Shown: piece by piece, positions 21,780 to 30,080 of the stretch | Position numbering within the stretch: position 1 is the first letter of the stretch | How the letters are laid out: each line of letters begins with the position of its first letter | Source: Armatimonadota bacterium | GTDB lineage: Bacteria; Armatimonadota; Fimbriimonadia; Fimbriimonadales; Fimbriimonadaceae | Assembly: GCA_020161505.1 (NCBI GenBank) | Contig: JAIUNY010000004.1 | Coordinates: 124,001-188,000, forward strand | Direction: 5' to 3' | Length of the DNA stretch: 64,000 nt | Notes under the pieces: model-generated | What the model saw: only the letters and a program-made list of their open reading frames with translations | What the model was told of the DNA's origin: nothing | The model's database searches: none | Made by a program: the position numbers and the translations under genes

Positions 21780-21874
21780 GGGAGCGGATGGGTGCCGGTG
21801 TGCCCCCCGGTCTTCAAAACCGCGTGTGACGCTTTTGGGCGTCGGGAAGGTTCGACTCCTTCGCGCTCCCGCCA
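21780..21874 (+). tRNA. selC: tRNA-Sec (anticodon UCA)
   Basis: This 95-nt gene has CCA encoded. The acceptor arm is GGGAGCG/CGCTCCC plus an eighth G-G mismatch, and the discriminator is G. The D arm has a 6-bp stem with a 4-nt loop CGGT, as in E. coli selC. The anticodon loop is CTTCAAA, giving UCA. The long variable arm is GACGC/GCGTC, and the T stem GAAGG/CCTTC carries the loop TTCGACT. The direct joining of T stem to an 8-bp acceptor is specific to selenocysteine tRNA. It means the genome very likely inserts selenocysteine at some UGA codons. No selA, selB or selD is in the window. Confidence 0.95.
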
Positions 21875-29286: not shown

Positions 29287-29940
29287 TCAGAACTTCACGC
29301 CCCAGCTGGTGCCCCAGTAGCGACCTTTGACCAGCAGCAGACTCAGGTTGCCGTTCGATTGCTTGTAGGTGAGCAACCAGTGGGTGTTGCGTCCATCGTG
29401 CTGCACCATGAGATCCCAAGCGGGAGCAAGAGGGGCGTTGACACCGAAGGGGATCAGGAACTGATCCTCCCACTCCGACCAACTCAGCGACACGTAGGGC
29501 GAGAGGTTGGTTCCGTGCACCTTCTTCCCAACGGTGAGGAAATAGGCACGCGTGCCCTCCGGCGAAAAGATCCGGTCGCTGGATGATCCGAAGTTCACCA
29601 GTGGATGCTTCTCGTCTTCGAACTGGAGCGTGTAGTTCAGCGTTGGCACGAACTCTTCGACCACGGGGTTGAACTCAAGTCCAACCAACAAGCGATCTGT
29701 GACGCCGTAAGCCGCATTGAACCTCCACCGAGGGCGCTCTTCGCGCAGGCCCGCCCACCGCAAAGTGAGCTGGGTTTGATTTTTGATGCTCCCCGACCCG
29801 AGGAACTGACCTTCACCCGGTCATCCGGTTCACGTGGGGACAGCGGTGGGGGGCTCGTCTTCGTCGCCGACCGCCAACGGGAGAGCCAGCCCGGCTTGCA
29901 CATTCGCCAGCAGGGCCAGAGAGAGGAGGGAAAGCTTCAT
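29287..29940 (-). CDS. secreted beta-barrel protein with two in-frame UGA codons (candidate selenoprotein)
   Basis: ATG 29940 starts a good signal peptide (MKLSLLSLALLANVQAGLA) and a short acidic/proline linker. The frame then meets UGA at 29830-29832 and UGA at 29821-29823, separated by Thr-Gly, and runs open to a stop at 29287. The ~178 residues after the second UGA read as an outer-membrane beta-barrel: amphipathic strands such as RWRFNAAYGVTDRLLVGLEF and YVSLSWSEWEDQFLIPFG, ending in a C-terminal aromatic (WGVKF). Read through as selenocysteine, the segment is PT-U-TG-U-PGEG, a U-x-x-U redox-type spacing. A hairpin with a G-rich loop follows at 29788-29806, and selC is in the window. The alternatives are two nonsense mutations (CGA or TGG to TGA) or internal re-initiation, which would lose the signal peptide. 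The start overlaps the stop of the Cys-rich gene by one base. Confidence 0.6.
29788..29806 (-). promoter_or_regulatory. possible bacterial SECIS hairpin
   Basis: On the minus strand, GTTCCTC and GGGGAGC pair over 7 bp (two G-U) around the loop GGGTC. The loop begins 21 nt after the second UGA and 30 nt after the first. Both distances fall in the range expected of bacterial SECIS elements, which usually have a G early in the loop. A competing hairpin at 29807-29823 includes the second UGA itself (TGACC/GGTCA). Confidence 0.4.
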
Positions 29941-30080
29941 CAGCAGCAGTCGCAGTTCGGGCAGTTTTCGGGGCACGGGCAGTTGCCATTCGCGCAGCAC
30001 GGGCACTTGCACTCACCGTCTTGACATGGCGGACACGCGCACTTTCCGTTAGAGCAGCAGGGGCAGGATTTTTCTTCCAT
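29940..30080 (-). CDS. 46-residue Cys-rich metallothionein-like protein
   Basis: Sixteen of 46 residues are cysteine, arranged as repeats CPCCSNGKCACPPC, CKCPCCANGNCPCPENC and PNCDCC. There are no aromatic residues and no histidine. This is the composition of a metallothionein-type metal-binding peptide, though it matches no subfamily I can name. There is no signal peptide, so it should act in the cytoplasm. A GGAG lies 10 nt before ATG 30080. The stop TGA shares one base with the ATG of the downstream barrel gene (TGATG), so translation is coupled. Upstream, the 8-mer GTTGAAAA occurs twice exactly 30 bp apart (30130-30137 and 30100-30107, minus strand), a possible regulator site. Metal storage or sensing is an inference from composition. 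Confidence 0.75.
   Translation of the reverse strand: MEEKSCPCCSNGKCACPPCQDGECKCPCCANGNCPCPENCPNCDCC

Follow-up and report, generated by a model that had tools for sequence, protein, structure and literature searches.

The window analysed here, a 64,000-nucleotide stretch of DNA taken at its full length, carries on its minus strand (29287..29940) a secreted barrel gene whose product is almost certainly a selenoprotein, with both of its in-frame UGA codons read as selenocysteine (Sec). The best overall explanation of our observations is a double-Sec outer-membrane barrel that would handle soft metal(loid)s and be reset by a redoxin, to which we assign a probability of roughly 0.65. A more detailed proposal, for which we see about even odds, is a new class of outer-membrane barrel selenoprotein where one SECIS serves to decode a pair of UGAs spaced three codons apart, the Sec pair acts as a periplasmic soft-metal or redox gate on a small barrel linked to ArsR, a metallothionein-like peptide and a YHS-redoxin, and a sister family with C-P-L-U or U-P-x-U motifs forms the second branch. 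These findings add, for Armatimonadota and, from single records, for other phyla, a large unannotated double-Sec selenoprotein family together with its sister family; they place a paired-Sec motif on a predicted outer-membrane barrel and may connect Sec with the handling of metals in the cell envelope.

Two UGA codons in an intact and constrained reading frame

The gene begins at ATG 29940(-), and its 217-aa product comprises a signal peptide (recognised by eye on the N-terminus), a short linker, the motif P-T-U-T-G-U-P-G-E-G and a barrel. Translation of 29287-29940(-) gives MKLSLLSLALLANVQAGLALPLAVGDEDEPPTAVPT*TG*PGEGQFLG...GVKF*, in which the in-frame UGAs are codon 37 (29830..29832, minus strand) and codon 40 (29821..29823, minus strand), the first and second Sec of U-T-G-U. 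This re-translation bears out the original prediction of two in-frame UGAs in U-x-x-U spacing within an intact barrel frame; the clean frame to a normal stop (TGA, 29289-29287) that had been put at about 178 codons after the second UGA is likewise present, its exact length being 177 sense codons. Standard gene calling, with UGA taken as a stop, leaves genes of this family truncated or missed.

A search of 60 relatives returned homologues of 39-66% identity, nearly all of which carry two in-frame TGAs, and among relatives the UGA/UGA state is kept at 28-69% identity. The homologues have the consensus PT-U-x-G-U-PGEG-x-x-LGSG directly past the signal peptide, and the motif shared by Armatimonadota and the single records of other phyla is PT-U-x-x-U-PGEG. 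When 291 genomes of the phylum were searched with a profile, the matches listed included 55 with two in-frame TGAs and five with a single one, and a 23-base double-TGA DNA pattern matched 25 of 61 family genomes against 0 for the reversed control, which together place the double-UGA motif far beyond chance. Scanning 84,980 species genomes recovered U-x-x-U members in Fimbriimonadaceae and other Armatimonadota, along with one record labelled Krumholzibacteriota, one Calditrichaceae and one Actinomycetota, these labels being metagenome-bin labels for which mis-binning is possible. The Actinomycetota-labelled record (L108, SYKE01000119.1) has the motif U-P-S-U. A further record (L078, JADZEW010000026.1) is labelled as a Methanoregulaceae archaeon; its protein is 66% identical to that of the window and its operon is of the Fimbriimonadales (Fimbriimonadaceae) type, and the bin label looks wrong.

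By the standard code, two in-frame stops could also mark a decaying barrel gene hit by two nearby nonsense changes, the alternative that had been raised beside the Sec reading. Both stops are, however, always UGA and always at the same two codons across dozens of genera and records of several phyla, and dN/dS past the UGAs lies far below 1 (two close pairs gave 0.13 and 0.046), which indicates that this region is translated and constrained. Pseudogene decay is excluded by this conservation and by dN/dS, and the likelihood left to it is negligible.

Exchange of Sec and Cys and the selenocysteine machinery

The Sec reading had been expected to gain support if relatives carried UGA or Cys at both positions, and this is what the homologues display. 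Besides UGA/UGA in dozens, they include Cys/UGA (CAGU in L046, with TGC at the place of the first UGA, and CPGU in L129), UGA/Cys (UAGC in L061, L127 and L128, with Cys at the place of the second) and Cys/Cys (CAGC in L062, L063, L065-L067, L071 and L130). In the homologues the in-frame UGA is either retained or replaced by Cys, the pattern by which a bacterial selenoprotein is recognised. Neither Trp nor Arg stands at either UGA position in the intact homologues read, so the finding that would have spoken against Sec, Arg (CGA) or Trp (TGG) at both positions, did not appear. N-terminal YHS/TRASH metal-binding modules were detected in the two all-Cys proteins scanned, and the others share this layout by sequence. 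One all-Cys paralogue lies in the window's own genome (L063 4991-6226, G000:C30) and combines two YHS/TRASH-like modules, C-A-G-C and the same barrel, with a small Cys-rich secreted protein encoded upstream and a ResA-like gene downstream.

The UGAs might instead serve mainly for selenium-dependent attenuation, with a stop at codon 37 without selenium and the long form made only if selenium and SelB suffice. Such an effect is inherent in SelB decoding, and coupling could matter given that the start overlaps a Cys-rich ORF (described below), but the occurrence of Cys forms at both positions, including the all-Cys paralogue in the same genome, indicates that the residue itself is used, and we consider attenuation as the main function very improbable.

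For the reading of both UGAs as Sec, the required machinery is complete. The intact tRNA-Sec gene claimed for the window was recovered by both ARAGORN and Rfam (selC, UCA anticodon, 21780..21874, plus strand), and the same genome encodes selB (G000:C33), selA (G000:C10) and selD (G000:C6), so that SelA, SelB, SelC and SelD are all accounted for and the objection of a missing selC or a genome lacking selA/selB/selD does not apply. The selD gene of this genome (L074, G000:C6:62822-63739) has one in-frame TGA and probably encodes a selenoprotein itself. The SelB cut-off was passed in 36 of 61 genomes, and a fragment was found in a 37th (G054, 73% complete); these 37 include every one of the 24 UGA-bearing genomes among the 61, with 0 among those lacking selB, a co-occurrence with P about 6e-8 when relatedness is ignored. 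That UGA is reassigned or suppressed to give Trp or some other amino acid has a vanishingly small likelihood: this ORF already uses TGG for Trp and itself ends in TGA, while the alternative residue in homologues is Cys and UGA genes track selB.

A single SECIS hairpin within range of both UGAs

Covariation and folding reveal a bacterial SECIS hairpin at 29788..29806 on the minus strand, with a 7-bp stem (GUUCCUC/GGGGAGC, arms 29806-29800 and 29794-29788) and the 5-nt loop GGGUC (29799-29795). The hairpin with a G-rich loop originally reported 21 nt after the second UGA is real, although that distance runs to the loop start and not to the stem base; the loop begins 21 nt past the second UGA and 30 nt past the first. 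The published bSECIS limits, namely a stem of 4-16 bp, a loop of 3-9 nt with G in its first two bases, a distance of 16-37 nt to the UGA and MFE <= -7.5 kcal/mol (PMC13188914), all hold for this hairpin with respect to both UGAs. Folded alone it reaches -10.9 kcal/mol, and 0 of 200 shuffles were as stable; a longer 56-nt stretch gave z = -1.06 only, its signal being diluted by a second upstream hairpin and by stretch composition.

These observations were further strengthened by comparison across the family, where 98.0% of the stem cells are paired (28 distinct sequences) versus 48-61% in slid versions. Four pairs change on both sides, and there are 25 both-sides-changed cells versus 5.6 +/- 2.4 in shuffles (0/500), and the codons past the second UGA are unusually base-conserved (CTC-GGT-TCG-GGG). 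The Krumholzibacteriota and Calditrichaceae members have the stem rebuilt at the same place with GC-rich arms (GCCGCUC..GAGCGGC or near), and the Actinomycetota-labelled member has an equivalent hairpin 4 nt nearer the UGAs.

Because the loop lies at 21 and 30 nt, within the range of 16-37 nt, one bacterial SECIS could serve both UGAs and is probably responsible for both Sec insertions. The E. coli system is strict about the distance from UGA to SECIS, so that one hairpin for two UGAs needs a tolerant SelB. The hairpin is kept in L046, which has the second UGA only, and in L061, which has the first UGA only, at the respective distances, which suggests that SelB tolerates both. The family offers a natural setting in which to ask if a lone bacterial SECIS serves two UGAs at differing distances, with the single-UGA relatives as built-in controls for each of the two.

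A predicted outer-membrane barrel outside the catalogued families

AlphaFold2 (32 sequences) predicts a barrel of 12 strands with pLDDT 88.2 and pTM 0.82, in which the N-terminal stretch is poorly defined and the motif falls in blocks of pLDDT about 64-73. Foldseek matches were outer-membrane barrels (FapF, NanC and KdgM, TM 0.53-0.61) and a designed 12-strand barrel (TM 0.59/0.64), and PF13505 was matched by 5 of 26 family members. A signal peptide recognised by eye and a predicted barrel that closes with 12 antiparallel strands, an even number, are the marks of an outer-membrane beta-barrel, and the model makes it very likely that the product resides there. The initial description of a secreted beta-barrel with the motif in its N-terminus agrees with this outer-membrane-type model, where the motif sits in the N-terminal arm. 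By analogy with general outer-membrane barrel topology, the Sec pair in this arm would face the periplasm.

Pfam and NCBIfam scans of the window protein and 26 members found no specific family, and a PDB sequence search returned nothing meaningful. The small 12-strand porins KdgM and NanC have the same strand number and size (TM about 0.5-0.6) and are not known to carry a Cys/Sec arm; membership in this porin family was rejected, the PDB sequence search and Pfam scan giving no sequence match. The SelL and Prx-like U-x-x-U proteins likewise have a redox-type motif that contains two Sec two residues apart, and Cys-containing homologues, but theirs is a thioredoxin/peroxiredoxin fold, whereas in the window protein the motif sits in the N-terminal arm of an outer-membrane-type barrel; the structure model and Pfam scan gave no thioredoxin-like fold, and membership was rejected here as well. 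The YHS-domain (seleno)protein NF041384 and the Sao and Tso systems are also selenoproteins in metal- or ArsR-linked contexts, yet they are different proteins, and in the present family YHS lies in the neighbouring redoxin or in the all-Cys paralogues.

Of the 119 prokaryotic selenoprotein families inventoried in 2026, two are outer-membrane barrels and several are of UxxU type (PMC13188914), and none matches the double-Sec barrels. The earlier statement that no outer-membrane barrel selenoprotein of this kind was known thus needs narrowing: the GSU2204 family (MtrB-PioB-like, NF041027) and the TonB-dependent receptor of FCYXU type (NF049945) are already listed as Sec-bearing outer-membrane barrels (PMC13188914), but these are different families with one Sec each, and none listed has the paired-Sec motif. 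No match to NF041027 or NF049945 was found among the members of alignment A1. Among open-licence papers, none relevant to a double-Sec barrel family in Armatimonadota/Fimbriimonadia was found, and the deep-Sep paper makes no mention of UxxU, barrels or Armatimonadota (PMC12013277). Within Pfam, NCBIfam, the 119-family inventory and the open-licence literature, the family was previously uncatalogued.

Metal-linked gene neighbours and a proposed role

Directly upstream, a 46-aa ORF with 16 Cys (MEEKSCPCCSNGK...CPNCDCC) occupies 29940..30080 on the minus strand, and its TGA stop overlaps the selenoprotein ATG (TGATG). Neither this ORF nor the metal-linked operon of relatives had been noted in the initial description. 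The peptide had no Pfam match, and no family model for such peptides was found; its composition of 16 Cys in 46 aa points to a metallothionein-like peptide with putative metal binding. A similar Cys-rich peptide precedes the barrel gene in four relatives (L076, L077, L078 and L095), with shorter forms in three others (L079, L100 and L101). An ArsR-type regulator with LCVCE lies upstream in eight loci of relatives and is first in the cluster in several; the two that were scanned both exceeded the ArsR/SmtB cut-off of NF033788. A secreted fusion of YHS with a ResA/TlpA redoxin bearing a WCxPC-type site occurs in 16 loci, including all three other-phylum records, and is encoded downstream of the barrel gene except in L108 (upstream). 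At the Krumholzibacteriota locus (L106 1-5193), the barrel gene adjoins a divergent CusA/CzcA-type heavy-metal efflux set. Within the window, only the Cys-rich peptide adjoins the selenoprotein gene, the ArsR and YHS-redoxin genes not being adjacent; when unlinked copies were sought in the same genome, the best redoxin adjoined the all-Cys paralogue and the ArsR match was weak only.

These several kinds of neighbour, namely regulator, Cys-rich peptide, YHS and efflux genes, argue for a metal role, and on this gene context we lean towards a Sec pair that handles soft metal(loid)s on an outer-membrane barrel. The proposed mechanism would begin with one SECIS hairpin, within SelB range of both UGAs, directing both Sec insertions, after which the product would be exported and its barrel would enter the outer membrane with the Sec pair facing the periplasm. 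There the pair would cycle between two selenolates and a diselenide and may capture or reduce a soft metal or metalloid, thiophilic in character, that comes in through the barrel or close to it. A periplasmic ResA/TlpA-type redoxin, encoded next door and YHS-fused in many relatives, would reset the pair, a partnership suggested by gene order, while cytoplasmic buffering of this metal would fall to the co-encoded Cys-rich peptide. In several relatives the first gene of the cluster encodes an ArsR/SmtB repressor that has a C-x-C metal box.

The main rival takes the same double-Sec barrel as a redox protein of general envelope function, with thiol-disulfide or peroxide chemistry, that is reset by the YHS-redoxin and has no metal substrate, its metal-linked neighbours reflecting shared stress regulation. 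Motifs of the [UC]xx[UC] type are typical of redox proteins, the likely partner is ResA/TlpA-like with CxxC, and UxxC/UxxU families are listed as probable redox proteins (PMC13188914). Metals are nevertheless indicated by the ArsR/SmtB regulators with their C-x-C box, by Cys-rich peptides beside both barrel families, by the YHS/TRASH fusions and by the CusA/CzcA cluster, and we regard a pure redox role as unlikely.

A sister barrel family with related motifs

The second of these barrel families comprises secreted barrels of Fimbriimonadales genomes (L134-L151, L068, L069 and L122) with the motif C-P-L-U-[VIAT]-A-G-G or, in some, U-P-I-U or U-P-L-U. Profile comparison supports homology to the double-Sec barrels (probability 99.6%, E 4e-24), and no NCBIfam model covers the family. 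A C-P-L-C form occurs in two genomes (G010 and G158), the former without SelB above the cut-off. Most members have a SECIS-like hairpin with the loop 21 nt past the UGA, and several have Cys-rich genes upstream.
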